Of a DNA stretch of 64,000 nt, positions 5,861 to 21,104 are shown piece after piece. The translations under genes and the position numbers were made by a program. Each line of letters opens with the position of its first letter. The first letter of the stretch is position 1. This DNA comes from Mesorhizobium loti. Its GTDB lineage: Bacteria; Pseudomonadota; Alphaproteobacteria; Rhizobiales; Rhizobiaceae. The stretch is from assembly GCF_001510895.1 (NCBI RefSeq), contig NZ_LPWA01000098.1:62001-126000 (forward strand). Reading direction: 5' to 3'. The notes beneath the pieces are model-generated. The model worked only from the letters and a program-made list of their open reading frames with translations, did not search any database and was not told the origin of the DNA.

Positions 5861-7055
5861 AGCATCCAGCGGCTGTTTGATCATGAGCCTTTCCGGAATC
5901 GGGCCCCGCTTTTAGGGACCATGTTCGATATCGCTCGCGCAGGATTTGCGCCGACCGACCCGCGCCTTCCAGATCGAGACGATGCGCGGGCGGCATCGGT
6001 CCCACAAGCGCCTGTTTGATCGCATGCGCCAAACCTTCAGGCGTTAGGTCCTTTTCCATCAGCACCGTTGCAAGACCGAGTTCTTCGAGGATCAGGGCGC
6101 GTACCGTCTGTTCGGTTTCCCCGCCGGCTGCAAACGGAACGAGCAGGGAGCGACAACCCGCGCGCAGGACATCGCAGACCGTGTTGTAACCCGCCTGCGA
6201 GACCGACAGGCGGGCGCCGGTCAGGAGGCTGGCGAAATCCTCGCGGAACCGGAAGATGGACAAACTCGGCGTGGCATCGCGCGCGATCACGTCAAACTCG
6301 TCTTTCGGCAGGTTTGGGCCGGTGATCAAACACCATTTCCAAGCGTTGTTGGCATTCCGCGCCGCTGCGATGGTGGAACTGACAAGGCTCTTTCCGGCAG
6401 CCCCGCCGCCAACCGACACCAGAACGTCGAAGCGCTCGGAGGCCGCGGGCGGTGGCGGCGCGGCAACGAGTCCTGTGTAGGTAACCTCCGCCCTGATCGC
6501 CCCAGCCAGTGGAAATGTCTTGTCGATGGTTGCGAAAGCCGGATCACCGTGGACCATGACAAGGTCGAAATGCTTGTTGATGAGATCGACCGTTTCCTCG
6601 TTTCGGCCCGGCTTGACGCGCTCCTGAAGGATATCACGGACAGACGTCGCCAGCAGCGGTCTGGGTGACGTCGCGTCGATGGCCTCGATCAGTGGCAAAA
6701 GTTCGAAACGCATCTGCCGGCGTCCAAATGGAAACGCCTCGATAATGACGATATCGGGCCTGCAATCCCGGAATGCCTGCAGCAGCATTTCTGAACGCCA
6801 CTTCTTGAAGGCATCGTCGATGGGTTTGCCCTGCAGGTCGACAAGTCCGGAAAATCCTTCATCACCGGAGGTGACAGGTGGCAGGGCTACAGATTTTACA
6901 CCCGGTCCTGGAAACCCCGCGATCGGCGCTCCGCCGGTCACCACGGTTACGTCAAACCCGTCATCGACCAGAGCCGCCGCAATGCGGCTGGCGCGCGCGA
7001 GATGGCCAATACCGAGGAGGTGCTGGACATAGAAGAAAGCGCGCAGTCGCTTCAT
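5859..7055 (-). CDS. Glycosyltransferase, MurG-like (GT-B, COG4671 type)
   Basis: About 398 residues. The N-terminus FYVQHLLGIGHLARASRIAAAL is the GxGHxxR-type donor/acceptor loop of MurG-like GT-B enzymes. The C-terminal half has VLVSVGGGAAGKSL and SQAGYNTVCDVLRAGC, the UDP-sugar-binding region. The ATG at 7055 overlaps the stop of the upstream gene (ATGA), which fixes the start better than the GTG at 7070. It is the last of three overlapping glycosyltransferase genes and resembles the first one (8298-9512), so the two probably arose by duplication. The acceptor cannot be deduced; a cell-surface or secreted glycan is likely. Confidence 0.85.
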   Translation of the reverse strand: MKRLRAFFYVQHLLGIGHLARASRIAAALVDDGFDVTVVTGGAPIAGFPGPGVKSVALPPVTSGDEGFSGLVDLQGKPIDDAFKKWRSEMLLQAFRDCRPDIVIIEAFPFGRRQMRFELLPLIEAIDATSPRPLLATSVRDILQERVKPGRNEETVDLINKHFDLVMVHGDPAFATIDKTFPLAGAIRAEVTYTGLVAAPPPPAASERFDVLVSVGGGAAGKSLVSSTIAAARNANNAWKWCLITGPNLPKDEFDVIARDATPSLSIFRFREDFASLLTGARLSVSQAGYNTVCDVLRAGCRSLLVPFAAGGETEQTVRALILEELGLATVLMEKDLTPEGLAHAIKQALVGPMPPAHRLDLEGAGRSAQILRERYRTWSLKAGPDSGKAHDQTAAGC

Positions 7056-8296
7056 TCGGCGGCCCGCCACTCCCGCTCGAACAGCTCCTTGAGCTGTCCA
7101 ATGCTTGCCGTATGATCGAAATTGCCGCGCACGCGCCGCTCTGCGGCCTCGCCGAGGCGGGCGCGCAGCACGGGATCACGGATCAGGCGCTCCAGCGCCT
7201 CTGCCAGGGCAACTGGGTTTTCCGTCGGAACCAGCAGCCCGGTTTCATCCGGCGATAAAAGCTCCGGCACGCCGGAAATATCGGTCGACACACAGGCAAG
7301 CCGCTGGCTAGCCGCCTCCACCAGAACATTCGGCAGACCGTCCCGGTCGCCATTCGCGGTGATCCTGCAGGCCAGGGCGAAGATGTCGGCGCGGCGGTAG
7401 TGCTCAAGCACCTCCTCCTGCGCAAGCGCGCCTTTCCAGGAGACACGACTGTCCAGGCCGAGCTTCTGCGCCAGCGCCTTGAGCCGTTCCAGTTCCTCGC
7501 CGCCACCGATATGCTCGAAACGCCACGCCAAATCACCAGGCAAGAGGGCAAGGGCCTCCAGCAAGGTATCGTAACCTTTCTTTTCAACGGCGCGCCCAAC
7601 ACTCAAAACGATAACCGGTTCGTCCGGCGCCGAGCCGTCACGCTCTTTCCGCGCCTCGCCGAAACTGCCGAAGCGATCAAGGTCCAGCCCATGGTAGCTC
7701 AGATGCACAGGCGACTTGCCGTTGGCGAGTTCTTTCAGACGGTCGAAACCGGTTTTCGTGCAAGTGACCGTCCAGCGCGCCGAGGAAAGCTTGCCAGCCA
7801 GATCCCAATCCGCCGAAGTCCAGATGTCCTTGGCATGGGCCGAGCAACTCCAAGGCAGGCCACGAAGCTGGCTGGCATAGCGCGTCACCGATGCCGGCGT
7901 GTGCGCGAAATGTGCATGCAGCCAGGCCGCGCCTTCCGGCCATTCGGCCGCCAGCACGAGCGCTTGGCCGAAGCGGCGCACGCGATTGCGTGTGAAGTCG
8001 CGGGGGATATCGGTAGCCAGCGATCCGAGCGCGCGCCAGAAGCCCGGCCGCAGCAGATAAGCAAACAGCGAGCGAACCACGCGCAGCGGCTCTTCATGCA
8101 GATATTCCGGCAGATAGTGGACGGGCGCTTTGATCTCGTCATGCACGGGCTGGCGTTTTGCGTCGGTCGGCCGCCTGAGCGCGACGAGTATCAGGTCGAA
8201 CCCCGCACGCTCCAGACCGAGCAGTTCCTGCGCGATGAAGGTTTCCGACAGCCGCGGATATCCCTTCAGAACCACGACGATCTTGCGGTGCTGCAA
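7052..8296 (-). CDS. Glycosyltransferase family 4
   Basis: A 414-residue GT-B glycosyltransferase. It starts with VVVLKGYPRLSETFIAQEL, typical of GT4 enzymes acting on exopolysaccharide. The C-terminal GT1/GT4 domain contains VLSVGRAVEKKGYDTLLEAL, then NGDRDGLPNVLVEAAS with the EX7E-type region, and GVPELLSPDETGLLVPTENP. The start is TTG at 8296, one base after the stop of the upstream gene, with GAAGG about eleven bases before it. It shares a four-base overlap with the next gene, so translation is coupled. Sugar donor and product are unknown. Confidence 0.88.
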   Translation of the reverse strand: MQHRKIVVVLKGYPRLSETFIAQELLGLERAGFDLILVALRRPTDAKRQPVHDEIKAPVHYLPEYLHEEPLRVVRSLFAYLLRPGFWRALGSLATDIPRDFTRNRVRRFGQALVLAAEWPEGAAWLHAHFAHTPASVTRYASQLRGLPWSCSAHAKDIWTSADWDLAGKLSSARWTVTCTKTGFDRLKELANGKSPVHLSYHGLDLDRFGSFGEARKERDGSAPDEPVIVLSVGRAVEKKGYDTLLEALALLPGDLAWRFEHIGGGEELERLKALAQKLGLDSRVSWKGALAQEEVLEHYRRADIFALACRITANGDRDGLPNVLVEAASQRLACVSTDISGVPELLSPDETGLLVPTENPVALAEALERLIRDPVLRARLGEAAERRVRGNFDHTASIGQLKELFEREWRAAE

Positions 8297-12790: not shown

Positions 12791-13369
12791 CTATTTTTTA
12801 CTTCTCGGCCGTTTTCGCGCCTGTGCCGGTGCGACCAGTCCCATACCGACCACCGGATCCTCTTTAGCGTAATCTTCAAGCTTCTTGGCAGTAATCAAGG
12901 ACGCAGGCTGGTATTTGAACTCGCTCCGGGATGGATCTTTCGACCAGTAAGTTCGAAGCTTTGCGATCACTTCGGAAAGGTTAGGCGACTTTCGTATGGC
13001 GTCATTCAGATCAGCTATCGCCGATTCTGAATCGTATGACCAAAAGGTTCTGTAATGATATCGGTAGCCAATTGACCAATACGTTCCCAAGTACCTCGCA
13101 CCCTCAACCTTTTCCACGTTTTGCCGAATAAAAGCCTCGTTGTCTTCCAGGAATTTATGGAATGCGGGCACATCCTGGTAAGGGATGCCAAATGTCCATT
13201 CAATCAGAATACAACCCAGGGCGTAAGGAATAGCCGGCTCGCACGGTGTAAATGAAATAGCCCCGTGCGTGCGAACTTCAACGACAACTGGCTCGACCGC
13301 CGGTGGCGCCGGAATGCCTTGCCGACGTACCAAGCGCTTGACCTGTTCGATAGTCGGATTGCGTGCCAC
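12791..13369 (-). CDS. Hypothetical protein of putative peptide-modification cluster
   Basis: 192 residues from a GTG at 13369, which has a strong GGGAGG nine bases upstream (spacer ACTGGCTA). No family was recognised with certainty. The centre (residues about 40-130) is rich in aromatic residues: FGIPYQDVPAFHKFLEDNEAF, then YLGTYWSIGYRYHYRTFWSY. This could be a ferredoxin-like alpha/beta-barrel (NIPSNAP/EthD type) fold. The tail is basic (ARKRPRSKK). There is no signal peptide. It is the last gene of a four-gene minus-strand set after the PqqD-like gene, 40 bases apart, so it may be a modifying, immunity or regulatory partner of the radical-SAM enzyme. Confidence 0.6.
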   Translation of the reverse strand: MARNPTIEQVKRLVRRQGIPAPPAVEPVVVEVRTHGAISFTPCEPAIPYALGCILIEWTFGIPYQDVPAFHKFLEDNEAFIRQNVEKVEGARYLGTYWSIGYRYHYRTFWSYDSESAIADLNDAIRKSPNLSEVIAKLRTYWSKDPSRSEFKYQPASLITAKKLEDYAKEDPVVGMGLVAPAQARKRPRSKK

Positions 13370-13409
13370 TAGCCAGTCCTCCCGGTCGCCGAATGGTTTC
13401 TCCGGCGCT

Positions 13410-13721
13410 TCAAGCCGGTTCTACAAGCTCTATGACGCCCTGCTGAATGAGATCCTCAATGCCCCGCCGCAGTTCAAGCCGTGCAACTTCGCGCGAGCGC
13501 GAAGGTTCGATTGTAGCAAAATAGCTACGCTCCAGCGACCTCCAACTTCGCCCGTCGCACAATTCCATTATAAGCCACGCAGACGAATTGAGGGTGTATA
13601 GCCTCGGGTTCTCTGGGGTGAACACGATGCAGATACCCATCTCATCGACGGGGCGAATACGTAGGTTTGCGACCTTTCGAAAGGAGACGCGACGGTAAGA
13701 CACGTAAGTCGACTCCGTCAT
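13410..13721 (-). CDS. PqqD-like peptide-binding (RRE) protein
   Basis: 103 residues with the PqqD-family pattern: RPVDEMGICIVFTPENPRLYTLNSSAWLIMELCDG followed by a winged-helix tail (LRRGIEDLIQQGVIELVEPA). In known RiPP (ribosomally made modified peptide) pathways such proteins bind the precursor's leader and present it to a radical-SAM enzyme. The ATG at 13721 has no clear Shine-Dalgarno site and lies 80 bases inside the radical-SAM frame. The base context ATGA at this start would give a normal stop-start overlap if the upstream gene were in another frame near its end, hinting at a missing base there. Function is inferred from family and neighbours. Confidence 0.8.
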   Translation of the reverse strand: MTESTYVSYRRVSFRKVANLRIRPVDEMGICIVFTPENPRLYTLNSSAWLIMELCDGRSWRSLERSYFATIEPSRSREVARLELRRGIEDLIQQGVIELVEPA

Positions 13722-14673
13722 TCAATGTCGAGCAGAACGGATCAGGTGCCCCCCAACGACCATGAAAGGCATAGGCCGCCGAGCGGCATCCTCCGCGTGT
13801 TCCTTCAACGGCATCGCAGGTCGGGCACGACTTTTCGACCATACCGGAGCGCAGTTCTCGGTAGAGGGAATGCTCCCAAGTGTCGAGGAACGGCACCTCG
13901 CGAATATTGCCGTAATCGACGTACTCGCGGAGATAAGCGCAACCAATTGATCGGCCGAATGGATCTACCGCAGCAGCCTGCCAGCAGCAGTTCCGGTCAT
14001 TGGGATGCCACGACTTCATCACGGTAAGCCCAGGTGGTGGTGCAAGCGAGTTGAGCACAGCCATCTGCTCTTGCAGGGACATCGCCAACTCATCCCAGCG
14101 GGACTTAGCTCGTCCCAGAGGATAGAGGCGCAGAATTCCTGCGCGGGGAACACCGAGCTCGTGTGCAAGCTCCAAATACTCTTGCAGTTCGTGCATATTT
14201 CTCCGGTTCAGGATCGTGAGCACATCAGTATCGATGCCAGCCTCGAGCAGGTAGCGAACCGCTTCGCGGGCTTTCTGGAAGCTCCCGCTAACTCCGGTGA
14301 AATAATCGTGCGTCTCGGCTCTCGCTCCCATCAGGTCAATGAGCACACGTCCCATGCCGATCTGCTTTAGGCGATGCGCCATCTCGCGATTGATGAGGGT
14401 TCCGTTGCTCCGCAACATGGTCATCATGCGGCGAGCGCAATGTTCCAAAATTTGAAGAAAATCTTCCCGGAAAAGAGGTTCCCCGCCTTCGAAATAAACG
14501 GAAATAAAATCATTTCTGACCAAATAATCGAGGAACCTCTGCCATTCACCAGTAGTGACTTCAGCAGACGCTTCGCTGGCCTTGCAATCTGCATAACAAT
14601 GCTTGCACTCTAGATTGCAAGTCTGAGTTATCGACAGAGTTATGCTTAGGGGTGAGTTCAGGACGGGTGGCAA
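13642..14673 (-). CDS. Radical SAM/SPASM peptide-modifying enzyme
   Basis: 343 residues. The radical-SAM cluster motif CxxxCxxC is Cys19, Cys23 and Cys26 (CNLECKHC), followed by the SAM-binding EGGEPL motif. A C-terminal SPASM domain has about seven cysteines (NCCWQ, IGCAY then YGN, SCPTCD, GGCRS, DPFC), enough for auxiliary Fe-S clusters. Such enzymes form thioether or carbon-carbon crosslinks in peptides, as in PqqE or sactisynthases. The start is TTG at 14673 with a perfect GGAGG seven bases upstream, 12 bases after the stop of a small ORF. The last 27 residues after DPFC overlap the PqqD-like gene. A missing T in TGCTCGAC would instead end the protein at an ATGA overlap. Confidence 0.88.
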   Translation of the reverse strand: MPPVLNSPLSITLSITQTCNLECKHCYADCKASEASAEVTTGEWQRFLDYLVRNDFISVYFEGGEPLFREDFLQILEHCARRMMTMLRSNGTLINREMAHRLKQIGMGRVLIDLMGARAETHDYFTGVSGSFQKAREAVRYLLEAGIDTDVLTILNRRNMHELQEYLELAHELGVPRAGILRLYPLGRAKSRWDELAMSLQEQMAVLNSLAPPPGLTVMKSWHPNDRNCCWQAAAVDPFGRSIGCAYLREYVDYGNIREVPFLDTWEHSLYRELRSGMVEKSCPTCDAVEGTRGGCRSAAYAFHGRWGAPDPFCSTLNDGVDLRVLPSRLLSKGRKPTYSPRR

Positions 14674-14685
14674 CTCAAGTCCTCC

Positions 14686-14859
14686 TCAGCAAGAATAGCA
14701 CCTCTCGTTGGGGAAATCCAACGCGCTGCCGGCAAGCGCTCCGACGGGCAGCCCTGGAGACATCGCCTCGTTTTGCATCAATCGGTGTACCGAGCCCTGT
14801 TTCGGCACAGAATATGGTCCGAAATTCTTGAGGGTCGAGCCGGCCTTCGTAAGGAGCAT
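14686..14859 (-). CDS. Candidate precursor peptide ending in CYSC
   Basis: A 57-residue frame (MLLTKAGSTLKNFGPYSVPK..., ending LDFPNERCYSC) whose TGA runs straight into the GGAGG of the radical-SAM gene 12 bases downstream. Size, position directly before a radical-SAM/PqqD pair, a Gly/Ala/Pro-rich middle and a cysteine-rich C-terminus fit a RiPP precursor with the core at ERCYSC. Against it: the ATG at 14859 has no visible Shine-Dalgarno site, the frame is open further upstream into an IS5 remnant, and an alternative frame is also open here. A shorter start at Met30 (MQNEAMSPG) is possible. No homolog is known to me. Confidence 0.4.
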   Translation of the reverse strand: MLLTKAGSTLKNFGPYSVPKQGSVHRLMQNEAMSPGLPVGALAGSALDFPNERCYSC

Positions 14860-14894
14860 AACGGAGGCAACCCAGCGGAAAACCCAGGGTGGCC

Positions 14895-15130
14895 TCGGGG
14901 TCGTTCCAGGGCCAGCAGACCTGCGTCGCGCCATAGGGCTGAACCAGGATAGACGGTGCGGACGGCAGGTCGCGCGGGAGAAGTCGCCACGCAATTCCAC
15001 GACGTAGAAGATCGCGTTGATGATTTCACGCGGCGACCAGGCGCGTGGTCGCGCGCGTTCGCACGGTTCGGCATTAACAGCTCGGCCAGAGTCCATTCGG
15101 AGTTTCTAATGTAAGCTGCCACGGCTATGA
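14895..15130 (-). mobile_element. IS5-family transposase remnant
   Basis: Pieces of an IS5-type transposase N-terminus appear in three frames: NSEWTLAELLMP, then SPREIINAIFYV, then RRGIAWRLLPRDLPS, then RTVY and ALWRDAGL. The order and spacing match an intact IS5 transposase start, so at least two frameshifts and a truncation have occurred. No C-terminal DDE region or terminal inverted repeats were found. It lies between the divergent precursor/radical-SAM operon and the cyclase gene, where it may have disturbed or supplied a promoter. Confidence 0.75.
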
Positions 15131-15250
15131 TGTCGCCCGATCCACATCGTGGTTCCAAGAAGGCTTCGACAACCTTTGGAGTCGCACGAATCCCGGCCAC
15201 AGATCCATTTCTCGGGACGGGCACAGGTTTATAAGCTGGAGACGCTCCAT

Positions 15251-18200
15251 ATGCGCTGTCCTCGGTGTCGGTTCGAGAACGGAGTTGGGATGCGGTTCTG
15301 CGGCAACTGCGGAGCACCGCTGACGAACGTACCTTCGCCTCTGTCCGACGACGCCGCACTCGCCTCCGCAGAGCGCAGGCAGATCACTGTCGTGTTTTGC
15401 GACATCGTCGGGTCAACTGCTTTATCGGAGCAACTCGACCCCGAGGATCTCCGCGACCTTTTTGCTACCTATCGATCCACTTGCGATGAGGTGGTCCGCC
15501 ATTGCGGCGGGTGGATAGCTTCATACTTCGGGGACGGTCTTCTCATTTACTTCGGCTATCCCGGTGCAGGCGACGACGATCCGGTAATGGCTGTGCGCGC
15601 TGCGATTGAAATCATCTCACGTTTCCAGCAACGTAGCACTGAAATGGTCGATTGCGCTGGTGCCAGCTTGCAGGTTCGCATCGGCATTCATACCGGATTG
15701 GTGGTTGCTGGCGATCTCCCTAGCGGTTCTGAACGGGAGATCTACTCTATCGTCGGCGAAACTCCCAATCTGGCAGCTCGTCTGCAAGCGCTCGCTGCGC
15801 CCCAGACGGTACTCATCAGCGATGCCACATACGCTCTGGTCAAGCATCGATTTGAATGCCGCTTTTTGGGAGAGCGCCACGTCAAGGGCATTTCGCGTCC
15901 GATTCGGGTCTATGTACCGTGGGCTGAATCAGCCTTCACGTCGCAGGATGCATTTGAAGTTCGAAACCTTACTCCCCTCGTTGGACGCACACGCGAGCTG
16001 GCACACCTCAGAGAAGGTTGGGAGCGCGTACTGCAGGGCAAGGGTCAAGTGGCGTTGATTTGCGGCGACCCAGGATTTGGCAAGTCACGCCTTGTACACG
16101 CTTTTCACGCCAGCATAGCCGACGAGCATTCCATGCTTGCGTGTAACTGCGTGCCGCATTCGTCCGACAGCGCGTTCCTCCCGATTATTAATTTGCTGCA
16201 TCGGCATCTTGCAATTACCTCGTCAGATGGCGCGGCCGAAAGACTCGCGAAACTTGAAACGTCACTAAAGCAATCGCCATTTCGGGTGGAAGAAGCGCTG
16301 CCTCTGATTGCCTCGCTGCTGTCGCTCCCGACTCCTGCCGGATTGGACACGACCAATCTGCTGCCTCGGAGGCGGCGGGAGAGGACGATTGAAATCCTGC
16401 TGACCTGGTTGCTTCGAGAGACGGAGCGTCGCCCAGTTATTCTTGTCGTAGAGGATCTCCATTGGGCCGATCCCTCGACGCTCGACGTCATCAAGCAACT
16501 ACTTCAGCTTGTTCCAACCGTGAAGTTATTTCTCCTCCTGACGTTTCGCCAGGAGTTCGTGCAACCTTGGGTCGATCCCTCGTACGCGATGCGATTTACG
16601 CTTTCGCGCCTCTCCTCTGGTGACACCAACGAGATTATTGCCAACCTGACCAAAGGCACCGAGCTATCACCGGCGTTGGTCAGCCAGCTGATTGAACGGG
16701 CTGACGGCGTGCCGCTATTCGTGGAAGAATTAACGAAGACCGTTATTGAATCTGCGCAGGCCACCGATAGCGCGGCGACTCCCGCCCTCCTCGACGAGGC
16801 TGCCATCCCTGTAACGCTGCGCGACTCCCTGATGGCCCGACTGGATCGGCTGAATTCCATCAAAGCGACCGCGCAGATCGCGGCAACTCTTGGCCGCGAA
16901 TTTCCGTTCGAGTTGCTGAAGGCAGTCACGTCGGCTTCTGAGACAGAGCTGCTGAGCGCTCTATCCCAGTTGGTCGACCGTCAGATTCTGTTACAGCGTG
17001 GTATTCCTCCGCAGGCTTCATATTCTTTCAAGCATGCACTCATTCAGGAGGCAGCCTACCAATCTCTGCTTCGAAGCTCACGGCGCCGCTATCATCTGCG
17101 GGCCGCCGAGGCGCTGGTTGATCAGTTCCCGGATTTCGCCGAGCGGCAACCGGAGCTAATAGCTGGGCATCTCAACCTCGCGGGAGATACAGAGCGCGCC
17201 ATAAACTACTGGCAAACAGCCGGCGAACGAGCACTGAGCCGCTATGCAAACCTCGAGGCAGAAGCTCACTTCCGAAAAGCATTGGCTGCGATCACGAGCC
17301 TTTCTTCCTCGCGCCAGCGCCAGCAACAGGAGGCTTCGCTCTTAATCGGGCTTGGCACTGCGCTGACCGCGATCAGAGGTTGGGCCGCTTCGGAGGCTGA
17401 GCACATCTACGCGAGGGCGCGTTTGCTGTGCCAGACAATCGGAGATACCCCACAGCTCGCGGCTGCCCTTCGAGGTTTGCAGTCGTACTACCAGGTGCGA
17501 GGACCTGTTCAAGCGGCACGAGAAATTGGTGAACAATTCCTTGAGGTGGCAGACCGGGGTAGTGACCGGTCAATTCGAGTCGAAGCTCGACGCGCTCTCG
17601 GCTGGTGTCTCTTCTGCCTCGGCGAATTCACAGCAAGTAGAAAGCAGCTCGAGGCTGCCATCGGCGACTACGATCCAGCGTTGTCGCCCAGAAACGTCGT
17701 TGCATACGGATCCGATGCGGGTGTCGCTGGCCTTGCCAATCTTGCCTGGCTCGAATGGTGCGTAGGTAACTCCGAGTGTGCAGTTGAGCGAAGCCGCGAA
17801 GCGATCCGTCTGGCAGAAGCGCTCGCGCATCCGCTCAGCGTCACCTATGCACTCTGTATGTCGGCAGCCGTCCATCAAGGCCTCCGTCAGCCAAAAATTG
17901 CTGAGGAGCTTGCGACGAGCACCGTTGCGATAGCTACCGAGAATAACCTTTTGTACTGGATGTCCTGGGGCACCATTCTTCGGGGCTGGGCCGTTGCCGA
18001 GCAAGGCTCAACCGATGCAGGGATCAACATGCTGAACGAGGGCATCGAGGCGTACGCCGCAACAGGTGCGGAGCTGTTTCGTGGCTATGCGCTCGGCCTT
18101 CTCGCCGACGCCTGCGGCAAAGCAGGGAAGCCAAGCGAGGGGCTTCGCCATATCAACGAAGCGGTCGTCAGCAGCACGGCCGTAAACGTGCACTTCTTCG

Positions 18201-18382
18201 ATGCGGAACTCTACCGGATCAAAGCGGCCCTTCTTCTACTGTCGGGAAGTGCCCCCAAGGCAGCCACTGAGGCGCTTGAACGCGCGGTAGAGACTGCCCG
18301 TAGCCAGGGTGCGAAGATGCTCGAGCTTCGCGCCCTGAACGATCTGGTACAATTGCGCAGGCGAGCCGGCCCGTCCGTCTGA
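15251..18382 (+). CDS. Zinc-ribbon / class III cyclase / AAA ATPase / TPR regulator
   Basis: 1043 residues. Residues 1-20 form a zinc ribbon (CPRC...FCGNC). Residues about 40-210 form a class III adenylate/guanylate cyclase domain with both metal-binding Asp motifs (VVFCDIVGSTAL and YFGDGLLIYFG) and IGIHTGLVVAGDL. An ATPase module follows, with Walker A GDPGFGKS and Walker B ILVVEDLHWADPS. The C-terminal half is helical TPR-like repeats. The ATG at 15251 starts at the zinc ribbon and has GGAG nine bases upstream. This architecture is common in rhizobia as a stand-alone signalling protein; trigger and target are unknown. It is divergent from the radical-SAM operon inside the island and could regulate it, which is inference. 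Confidence 0.88.
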   Translation: MRCPRCRFENGVGMRFCGNCGAPLTNVPSPLSDDAALASAERRQITVVFCDIVGSTALSEQLDPEDLRDLFATYRSTCDEVVRHCGGWIASYFGDGLLIYFGYPGAGDDDPVMAVRAAIEIISRFQQRSTEMVDCAGASLQVRIGIHTGLVVAGDLPSGSEREIYSIVGETPNLAARLQALAAPQTVLISDATYALVKHRFECRFLGERHVKGISRPIRVYVPWAESAFTSQDAFEVRNLTPLVGRTRELAHLREGWERVLQGKGQVALICGDPGFGKSRLVHAFHASIADEHSMLACNCVPHSSDSAFLPIINLLHRHLAITSSDGAAERLAKLETSLKQSPFRVEEALPLIASLLSLPTPAGLDTTNLLPRRRRERTIEILLTWLLRETERRPVILVVEDLHWADPSTLDVIKQLLQLVPTVKLFLLLTFRQEFVQPWVDPSYAMRFTLSRLSSGDTNEIIANLTKGTELSPALVSQLIERADGVPLFVEELTKTVIESAQATDSAATPALLDEAAIPVTLRDSLMARLDRLNSIKATAQIAATLGREFPFELLKAVTSASETELLSALSQLVDRQILLQRGIPPQASYSFKHALIQEAAYQSLLRSSRRRYHLRAAEALVDQFPDFAERQPELIAGHLNLAGDTERAINYWQTAGERALSRYANLEAEAHFRKALAAITSLSSSRQRQQQEASLLIGLGTALTAIRGWAASEAEHIYARARLLCQTIGDTPQLAAALRGLQSYYQVRGPVQAAREIGEQFLEVADRGSDRSIRVEARRALGWCLFCLGEFTASRKQLEAAIGDYDPALSPRNVVAYGSDAGVAGLANLAWLEWCVGNSECAVERSREAIRLAEALAHPLSVTYALCMSAAVHQGLRQPKIAEELATSTVAIATENNLLYWMSWGTILRGWAVAEQGSTDAGINMLNEGIEAYAATGAELFRGYALGLLADACGKAGKPSEGLRHINEAVVSSTAVNVHFFDAELYRIKAALLLLSGSAPKAATEALERAVETARSQGAKMLELRALNDLVQLRRRAGPSV

Positions 18383-19176: not shown

Positions 19177-21104
19177 TTGCGAGAAGAGCAACGCAGGCTT
19201 GCGGCGATTTTGGCTGCCGACGTGGCAGGTTACTCGCGGCTGATGGCGTCCGACGAGTCGGGAACGCTGGGACGGCTGAGGCGGCTCCGAGCCGAGGTGT
19301 TCGAGCCCAAAATCGCCCGGTTCCACGGACGCATCGTCGGCTCCGCCGGGGACAGCCTGCTGATCGAGTTTGGGAGCGCGGTTAACGCCGTGCAGTGTGC
19401 GATCGAGCTGCAGCGCGAGCTGGGCGGCGAGAACGCCGGCCTCCCCGAAAACCGGCGTATGGCGTTCCGTATGGGCGTAAACCTCGGCGACGTGATCGTC
19501 GAAGACGACACGATATACGGAGACGGTGTGAACATCGCGGCACGGCTTGAAAAGCTCGCGGACCTGGCGGCGTTTGCATTGAGCGCGCCATTTACGATCA
19601 AGTAAAAGGCAAACTCGAATACGTCTATGCGGATATCGGCGAGCAACGGGTTCACAACATTGCGGAGCCGGTGCGCGGCTACCGTGTCATGTCCATTGAG
19701 CAATCCTCCACCAGCTCGTCCGTGCCGTCGGCCAAGGATGCGCTTCCGTTCCGCAACCGACCGTCGATCGCCGTGCTGCCTTTCACCAACATGAGCGGCG
19801 ACCCAGAGCAGGAATACTTCTCTGACGGCATCACCGAGGACATCATTACGGACCTCAGCAAGGTCGGGGCGCTGGCAGTCACCGCGCGCAACACGACCTT
19901 TGCCCTCAAGGGCAAGTCGATGGACGTCAGCGAAGCGGCGCGGCAATTGCGCGTTTCGCATGTGCTGGAAGGTAGCGTGCGCAAGGCGGGTAGTCGCGTT
20001 CGCATCACCGCGCAGCTGATCGACGGGATGAGTGGGCATCATGTGTGGGCCGAGCGCTATGACCGTGATCTCAACGACATATTTGCGCTCCAAGACGAGA
20101 TTGCGCGGGCCATCGTCGATGCCCTGAAGATCCGGCTGATGCCGGCCGAGCATGCTGCCATCGGCAAGCGCACGACAGAGAATGTCGAAGCCTATCAATA
20201 TTACTTGATGGGACGGCAGCATTTCTTGCGCCTGGGCCGTCGCAATCACCTTTCCGCCCGACGCCTCTACCAGCGGGCGCTCGAGATCGATCCCGAATAC
20301 GCGCTGGCGCGGGCCGGGCTGGCGCTGGCTGAAGGCATGTTGCTGAGATCCGGAGATCCCAGCGCAAACCTTGTCACCTTAAGCGCCGAGGCGCAGCGCG
20401 CGCTGGCCTTGGACAGGACGCTGGCGGAAGCTCACGTGGCCGACGCGATGGCGCATTTCCAGAAGGAGCAAATCGAGCTCGCAGGCGCCGCCTGCCGGCG
20501 AGCAATCGCGCTCGATCCCGATCTCTACGAGGCGCACAGGACCTTGGGCGACGTGCTGCGCATGGAGCGCAAGTTTGCAGAGGCCGCGGCCGCCTATGAG
20601 AAGGCGGCGGAGGTTGATCGCAACAGCTATGGTGCGATGTGCATGCTCTGGGATTGCCGCAAGACCCTGGGCGGCGAGGAGGAAGCCCACAGGCTTTCAG
20701 GGGAGTTGCTGACCCGCATCGAGAAAGCCATGCAGCTCTATCCGGACGATGGGGCAGCCTATGCCTATGGTTGTTACATCCTCCACAATCTCGGCCTGGA
20801 CGAACGAGCCCTCCAGTGGGCCGAGCGCGCGATTACCATCGACCCGGAGGACTATAACAGCCACTACAATGTCGCGTGTTTCCTGGCGGCGATCGGTGCC
20901 GTCGAAAAGGCGATCGACACGCTGGAGCACTGCGTGCCGCAGCTTGGATTGCAGCAAGTGCACTGGATGGCGCAGGACGTGGATATGAATCCTCTGCGCG
21001 ATCATCCGCGCTATCGGGCGCTGATCAAGCGCCTGGAGGTCAGTTTGGCGAAGGCAGAAGGCCAATCAGGAAGCGGAACCGAAGGACGGCCTTCCGGCGC
21101 TTAG
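19177..21104 (+). pseudogene. Class III adenylate cyclase with TPR repeats, frameshifted
   Basis: Two frames (19177-19605 and up to 21104) together make one protein of about 640 residues. The N-terminus is a cyclase domain (LAAILAADVAGYSRLMASDE, GSAGDSLLIEFGS, FRMGVNLGDVIVEDDTIYGDGVNIAARLE). In the middle, PSIAVLPFTNMSGDPEQEYF starts the TolB-like/CadC-type domain, followed by TPR repeats. Near 19563 the intact family sequence (ADPGGVCI) is recovered if one C is added to GACCTGG, so a CCC to CC loss causes the break. The TTG start at 19177 has GGGAGG eight bases upstream. This is a very common rhizobial signalling family. The break may be an assembly error. Confidence 0.8.

Follow-up and report, generated by a model that had tools for sequence, protein, structure and literature searches.

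A three-gene block in Mesorhizobium loti encoding a radical SAM/SPASM enzyme, a PqqD-like protein and an unusually large candidate precursor

The window, a 64,000-nucleotide stretch of Mesorhizobium loti DNA (contig NZ_LPWA01000098.1), contains a compact block of three minus-strand genes encoding a radical S-adenosylmethionine (rSAM) enzyme with a SPASM domain, a PqqD-like protein and a 192-aa protein. The rSAM/SPASM gene (13642..14673) starts with TTG and specifies 343 aa. Its end is overlapped by the gene of the 103-aa PqqD-like protein (13410..13721), a putative leader-binding recognition element of the kind that serves ribosomally synthesized and post-translationally modified peptides (RiPPs). 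The third gene (12791..13369) starts with GTG and is preceded by a strong Shine-Dalgarno sequence, GGGAGGA; similar sites precede several of its homologues. The original prediction described a four-gene operon-like set that also included a 57-aa peptide. Open reading frames (ORFs) and Pfam matches confirmed the three larger genes in the claimed strand and order, and the strong Shine-Dalgarno site is present; the small peptide did not hold up as a gene. Comparison with the nearest relative, Mesorhizobium sp. CU3, indicated purifying selection on the rSAM, PqqD-like and 192-aa genes (ratios of nonsynonymous to synonymous rates 0.10, 0.17 and 0.15, respectively). A scan for promoters and terminators gave no signal above chance.

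Fifteen loci of this type, from 14 genomes or records, were collected (the window, L010, L002 and L024-L035). The window enzyme matched the Pfam families Radical_SAM (E 1.2e-22, 81.2 bits against a cut-off of 29.5) and SPASM (E 1.1e-5, 26.1 bits against 21.5). Its CX3CX2C motif and a fourth cysteine (C30) were invariant in the 15 homologues. As predicted, about seven cysteines lie in the SPASM half; we counted exactly seven (229, 230, 245, 283, 286, 296 and 314) in the pattern C230-x9-G-x4-C245, C283-x2-C286, C296, C314. Five of them were invariant across the homologues, whereas position 229 was serine in 7 and position 314 was cysteine in 6 and aspartate in 9. The standard seven-cysteine SPASM pattern has a further cysteine between the positions equivalent to C286 and C296. 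None was present there in any of the 15 rows, so the number of cysteines agreed with the prediction but the full standard pattern did not. The PqqD-like protein matched Pfam PqqD narrowly (E 4e-5, 24.3 bits against 23.4), and the L002 protein, the other of the two that were scanned, fell slightly under that cut-off (21.4). A PqqD-like frame was found at all 15 loci; 14 homologues were aligned, the L027 row being omitted as it had no start codon at the usual place.

The rSAM and PqqD-like proteins matched 89 NCBIfam models, and none of the 25 whose scores were examined reached its cut-off. The best scores for the rSAM enzyme were to AhbD (163.5 bits) and NirJ2 (150.2 bits), which might point to a tetrapyrrole branch of the AhbD/NirJ kind or to another branch that does not act on peptides. 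We consider this very improbable: both scores are far under the cut-offs of 500, the matched stretches extend no further than residues 208 and 196, and the highest-scoring nearly full-length match was to the peptide maturase MftC (residues 5-315, 144.1 bits against 265). In addition, a PqqD-like gene adjoins the enzyme at every locus, and the family clade is separate in a tree, albeit one without an AhbD row. This tree comprised 26 rows, the 15 family members and 11 other rSAM proteins (two MftC, two PqqE, one NirJ, one TIGR04053 and five more). The family formed a single clade (support 100/99, branch length 1.48) apart from the other 11. Scores for other peptide-modifying systems were also below their cut-offs: GeoRSP with 135.4 against 400 for the rSAM enzyme and 13.7 against 100 for its PqqD family, and the sactipeptide and ranthipeptide enzymes StsB and PapB with 98.5 against 625 and 61.3 against 340 bits.

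The order rSAM, PqqD-like protein, third protein (the homologue of the 192-aa protein) was found on one strand at 15/15 loci. Nine of these (L024, L027-L031 and L033-L035) were reached through the rSAM profile alone, and the third protein adjoined in all nine. Thus no family rSAM gene at the collected loci occurred without its PqqD-like and third-protein neighbours. In samples of one genus (g35, 146 genomes) and one family (f2, 103 genomes), apparently drawn identically for both searches, the rSAM profile (E ≤ 1e-60) and the third-protein profile (E ≤ 1e-3) matched the identical 7 and 3 genomes; the latter profile was built from loci already found, and the informative part of this agreement is the absence from the other genomes. 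The predicted co-occurrence and order of the rSAM enzyme and the 192-aa protein were therefore conserved, both genes being present in the same 10 of 249 genomes. The lack of any match reaching its cut-off among the 25 NCBIfam models examined, the separate clade and the constant neighbours at 15 loci support the original proposal that the pair lies outside PQQ (pyrroloquinoline quinone), mycofactocin and sactipeptide systems.

The gene set is rare in bacteria. Among 72,556 plasmid records the 192-aa protein had one match (Microvirga ossetica, 56% identity), and a scan of a genome collection, in which 43 stretches matched one of two patterns, gave one relative, that of CU3 (88%). Viral contigs yielded 31 pattern matches and no relative of the protein. 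As a single query, the protein matched only its own genome among 101 genomes, while a two-row profile of it matched its own and three further genomes (G228, G251 and G327) among 397 from the order, each of the three with an rSAM gene adjoining. Searches with the rSAM profile at E ≤ 1e-60 matched the window's own genome and one other among 385 sampled from the class, then 7 of the 146 genomes of the genus and 3 of the 103 of the family, the last with four loci; the counts refer to matches at this threshold, which scored at least 490 bits. The three genomes matched among 398 of the phylum had all been found already. At a cut-off of E 1e-25 in 101 relatives, the sole two other rSAM matches scored about 97 bits and were placed with PqqE in the tree.

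No Pfam family matched the 192-aa protein above its cut-off (best E 0.16), no NCBIfam model matched it up to E 1, and a profile search of the PDB gave no usable match (best E 0.5). When the 15 third proteins, which span 163-297 aa, were compared with families, ten families were each matched by one member only (best E 0.005). Their alignment had 12 invariant positions including the start. Three of these (P23, V32 and R33) are N-terminal and precede the predicted domain described below. They belong to a motif, P-x8-VR[ST] (more fully P-x7-[EQD]-VR-[ST]), that was present in 15/15 proteins, the valine of its first copy falling between residues 30 and 32, a position that depends partly on the start codons chosen for some homologues. 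Composition shuffles retained VR[ST] in a mean of 1.9 of 15 proteins, with a maximum of 7 in 1000 shuffles; as the sequences are related, no probability is attached to this comparison. In the window the motif occurs once (P23-x8-V32-R33-T34), within a proposed core of residues 23-42 (13244..13303, minus strand). The core follows a proposed leader of residues 1-22 (13304..13369, minus strand) with a helix predicted at residues 7-16 at low confidence (pLDDT, the per-residue confidence score of the model, below 50 in this part).

Three homologues carried the motif in tandem, with five copies in L032 and three each in L033 and L034, spaced 28-30 aa. The N-terminal copies amounted to 23 over the 15 proteins; an extra VR[ST] in the tail of the L002 protein appears chance-like. 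The array is visible at the DNA level too, in L009, a stretch that includes the L032 gene. Mean conservation in ten representatives was 0.57 in residues 23-42, compared with 0.37 in residues 1-22 and 0.24 in the tail. When the window was compared with CU3, residues 27-63, a segment picked after the motif had been seen, differed by 8 synonymous and 0 nonsynonymous changes, and residues 64-190 by about 32 synonymous and 23 nonsynonymous changes. No cysteine was invariant among the third proteins, and the thioether-cysteine pattern of sactipeptides and ranthipeptides was not found: the core stretch has none in L002, L024 and L032-L035 and one in the window, L010 and L025-L031.

The original prediction took the 192-aa protein as a partner of the enzyme and as the distinctive part of the locus. 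Its conserved company was borne out, but its role is better explained as that of a substrate, because the protein accompanies the rSAM enzyme and three homologues contain its motif as a tandem array. Repetition of the motif segment alone is the usual sign of multi-core precursors and suggests such a reading here. From the sequences, we therefore regard the block as probably an rSAM peptide-modification system with the 192-aa protein as its substrate, and the collected loci as a candidate new family of rSAM/PqqD-modified, RiPP-like proteins whose putative precursor is unusually large.

A small-peptide substrate had been expected instead, in the form of a 57-aa ORF (14686..14859, minus strand) located directly upstream of the rSAM gene in the divergent intergenic region (14674..15250). 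This ORF exists, and by tblastn it resembles a CU3 stretch (46% over 35 aa, E 9.5e-6), but the similarity was kept only in about the last 10 codons, beside the rSAM Shine-Dalgarno sequence. In the CU3 counterpart the frame is broken by +1 and -1 indels that offset each other and by an in-frame stop codon. At the 13 remaining loci, that of Microvirga ossetica among them, no match was significant (best E 0.20). Moreover, the ORF lies within a longer ORF of 136 aa (14686-15096, minus strand) with a weak match to an IS4/5 transposase family (DUF4096, E 0.015, below cut-off), which may mark a transposase remnant. We rejected it as a gene, and that it is the precursor is hardly credible. No other small ORF took its place: of 287 ORFs (20-150 aa) located up to 1.5 kb from any of the 15 blocks, none recurred between lineages. 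Only two between-lineage pairs matched at E ≤ 0.01 (2.3e-4 and 1e-3), both short and non-recurring. This comparison covered ORFs overlapping known genes by up to 30%; peptides inside such genes or farther off fall outside it.

These results bear on a rival view in which the 192-aa protein serves as a scaffold or accessory enzyme (NIPSNAP/ABM-like, for example an oxygenase) and some other peptide, which may be encoded elsewhere, is the real precursor. AlphaFold models of the whole protein and of residues 44-150, built from two sequences, showed a beta-alpha-beta-beta-alpha, ferredoxin-like layout at low confidence, and we assign residues ~51-142 (12944..13219, minus strand) tentatively to such a fold, followed by a basic tail. 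NIPSNAP entries topped the Foldseek lists (best E 6.8e-3, with probability 1.00, and 2.2e-2; none below 0.001). VIA-align gave the whole model a Z score of 7.1 to NIPSNAP 5k9f over 89 residues at 2.7 Å. When the domain was modelled alone, HMG-CoA reductase domains ranked higher, with Z up to 8.0 compared with 6.8 for 5k9f; scores to other ferredoxin-like folds were thus similar to those for NIPSNAP. The domain is thus likely of NIPSNAP/ABM type according to the models, although the label is unproven because HMG-CoA reductases lead in the domain-only comparison. The predicted fold, common to ABM monooxygenases and NIPSNAP proteins, would suit an enzyme, as would the conserved aromatic and polar residues of the predicted domain, and RiPP precursors are usually much shorter than 192 aa. 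Tandem duplication of the motif segment alone, outside the domain, is hard to explain for an enzyme. As the small-ORF control found no recurring peptide that could serve as precursor instead, we rate an accessory role as unlikely.

When the ORFs of all 15 loci were searched, an S8 subtilase gene was found directly upstream of the rSAM gene in five (L024 and L032-L035). D327, H434 and S820, presumably the catalytic triad, were invariant in all five subtilases. Subtilases of this type were absent at E ≤ 1e-10 from the genomes G251 and G931, with G942, G866 and G830 outside the search. A related subtilase in G951 and a subtilase fragment in G228 are located away from the respective cassettes. At the G951 match (L061, ~6578-8056), the ORF listing holds by eye a stretch resembling a hydrolase of the metallo-beta-lactamase (MBL) fold.

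A gene on the plus strand (15251..18382), divergent from the block, encodes a protein with zinc ribbon, class III nucleotide cyclase, AAA_16 and TPR regions; its start was chosen by comparison with CU3. A cyclase-AAA_16 gene adjoins the block at 12 of 15 loci including the window, and some of these genes also match zinc ribbon and TPR. The gene is divergent everywhere except L030, and at L024 and L035 the subtilase gene stands between it and the block. No cyclase adjoins the block in G327 and G1049. The cyclases form a large paralogous family with up to 14 matches per genome. The adjoining copy was the genome's best match to that of the window in five of the six other genomes tested (G251, G228, G931, G543 and G1050); in G951 it was not (33% identity) and lies on the same strand as the block. 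A genome of the same genus without the block (G003) has a cyclase as similar to the window's (39%, 702 bits) as most adjoining ones. Farther along the window, a second adenylate-cyclase-like gene (19177-21104, plus strand) appears by eye to be split into two ORFs (19177-19605 and 19671-21104).

If the 192-aa protein is the substrate, the PqqD-like protein would bind its N-terminal helical leader and present the motif to the rSAM enzyme, by analogy with PqqE/PqqD and MftC/MftB. A 5'-deoxyadenosyl radical would remove a hydrogen from one of the V-R-[S/T] residues, leading to a modification there, most likely a cross-link or a side-chain change centred on Val-Arg. At loci with an adjoining subtilase the modified units might then be excised. 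Where none adjoins, as in the window, the product may stay on the protein, or an unlinked protease may cut it. The neighbouring cyclase-AAA-TPR protein could regulate or sense the system.

A version of the substrate reading without release of a peptide is less probable but plausible. Here the rSAM enzyme would build a protein-derived cofactor or cross-link that is kept in the ferredoxin-like protein and has a redox or sensor role. The 10 of 15 loci that lack an adjoining subtilase, the conservation of the predicted domain and the frequent cyclase neighbour are consistent with it, but the subtilase at five loci and the repeated motif units at three would suit excised products. A more far-reaching proposal is a new class of ribosomal product, in which a subtilase/rSAM/PqqD-like trio would turn tandem VR[ST] units, placed between helical leader and ferredoxin-like domain, into small modified peptides for which the cyclase-AAA-TPR protein would be the sensor or the signalling route; rhizobia such as the host of the window would keep a reduced, single-core version without protease, in which the modified protein is the signal. 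This proposal is speculative and rather improbable, and we rate it lower because the cyclase similarity is not specific to the system, as the blockless G003 demonstrates.

Several observations weigh against the 192-aa protein as a precursor. The window member has one motif copy and no adjoining protease, and no subtilase-profile match was found in its genome at E ≤ 1e-10 (assembly 93% complete). The tandem repeats are limited to three loci of family f2, whose fourth locus (L035) is single-copy, and the constancy of motif position shares the dependence on start codons stated above. The predicted domain has conserved positions of its own (W58, F70, E78, Y93, G95, T96, T108 and W110), and its residues 87-112 exceed the core in conservation (0.62), a pattern that an accessory enzyme could show as well. 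Confidence in the fold models is low, with pLDDT of 49 for the whole protein and 64 for residues 44-150. Finally, the link of the cyclase to the block is weak, because its family is large and paralogous.

Among known systems, mycofactocin is similar in having an rSAM/SPASM enzyme and a chaperone gene beside a ribosomal substrate (MftC, MftB and MftA); MftB is PqqD-like. It differs in that the window enzyme scored below the MftC cut-off and falls in a separate clade, and in that the proposed substrate is 163-297 aa with an internal motif and a predicted folded domain, whereas mftA has 162 bases in Thermomicrobium. The PQQ system (PqqA/D/E) shares the rSAM/SPASM and PqqD logic, and the Pfam PqqD match is common to both. 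The window proteins scored 105.3 against a cut-off of 381.35 for PqqE and 13.8 against 46 for PQQ_PqqD, and the rSAM clade is separate here as well. NIPSNAP/ABM proteins may share the predicted fold of residues ~51-142; the present proteins have an additional leader and core segment and no sequence-family match. In the poly-cyclopropylglycine RiPP system TvgA/TvgB, an rSAM enzyme acts with a substrate that likewise bears a short motif in tandem, and the genes named are those of a precursor, an rSAM enzyme, a dioxygenase and two transporters (PMC9062424). The repeat there is TVGG instead of VR[ST], and the available part of that account mentions neither a PqqD-like gene nor a folded C-terminal domain. 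Repeat-bearing rSAM precursors such as TvgA (PMC9062424) and rSAM/PqqD pairs are thus already known. The available passages of PMC8939145 and PMC3023750 contained no match to the gene set, and a literature search, mostly of open papers with few preprints, turned up no apparent description of this gene combination and no VR[S/T] motif.

If the proposed reading is right, the substrate architecture of leader, one to five repeated cores and folded domain in 163-297 aa would be one that RiPP mining centred on small peptides misses, and the enzymes would form an rSAM clade with one standard SPASM cysteine missing and VR[S/T] as its target. The system is compact, with three genes, and its cyclase neighbour suggests a possible tie of a modified peptide to nucleotide signalling.

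Another rSAM/PqqD cluster lies on a plasmid of Indioceanicola profundi (NZ_CP030128.1; L063, 2916-7350), where an NTF2-like 175-aa protein, an rSAM enzyme, a PqqD protein and two more rSAM genes are encoded in a row beside a TIR protein; its candidate substrate may be a protein with a folded domain. Several long ORFs flanking the collected blocks had no Pfam match at E ≤ 1e-4, and some of them may be shadow ORFs. On the M. ossetica plasmid (L002, 9793-16449), a gene set of the xanthine-dehydrogenase type, which includes XdhC and molybdopterin genes, was located just downstream of the cassette.

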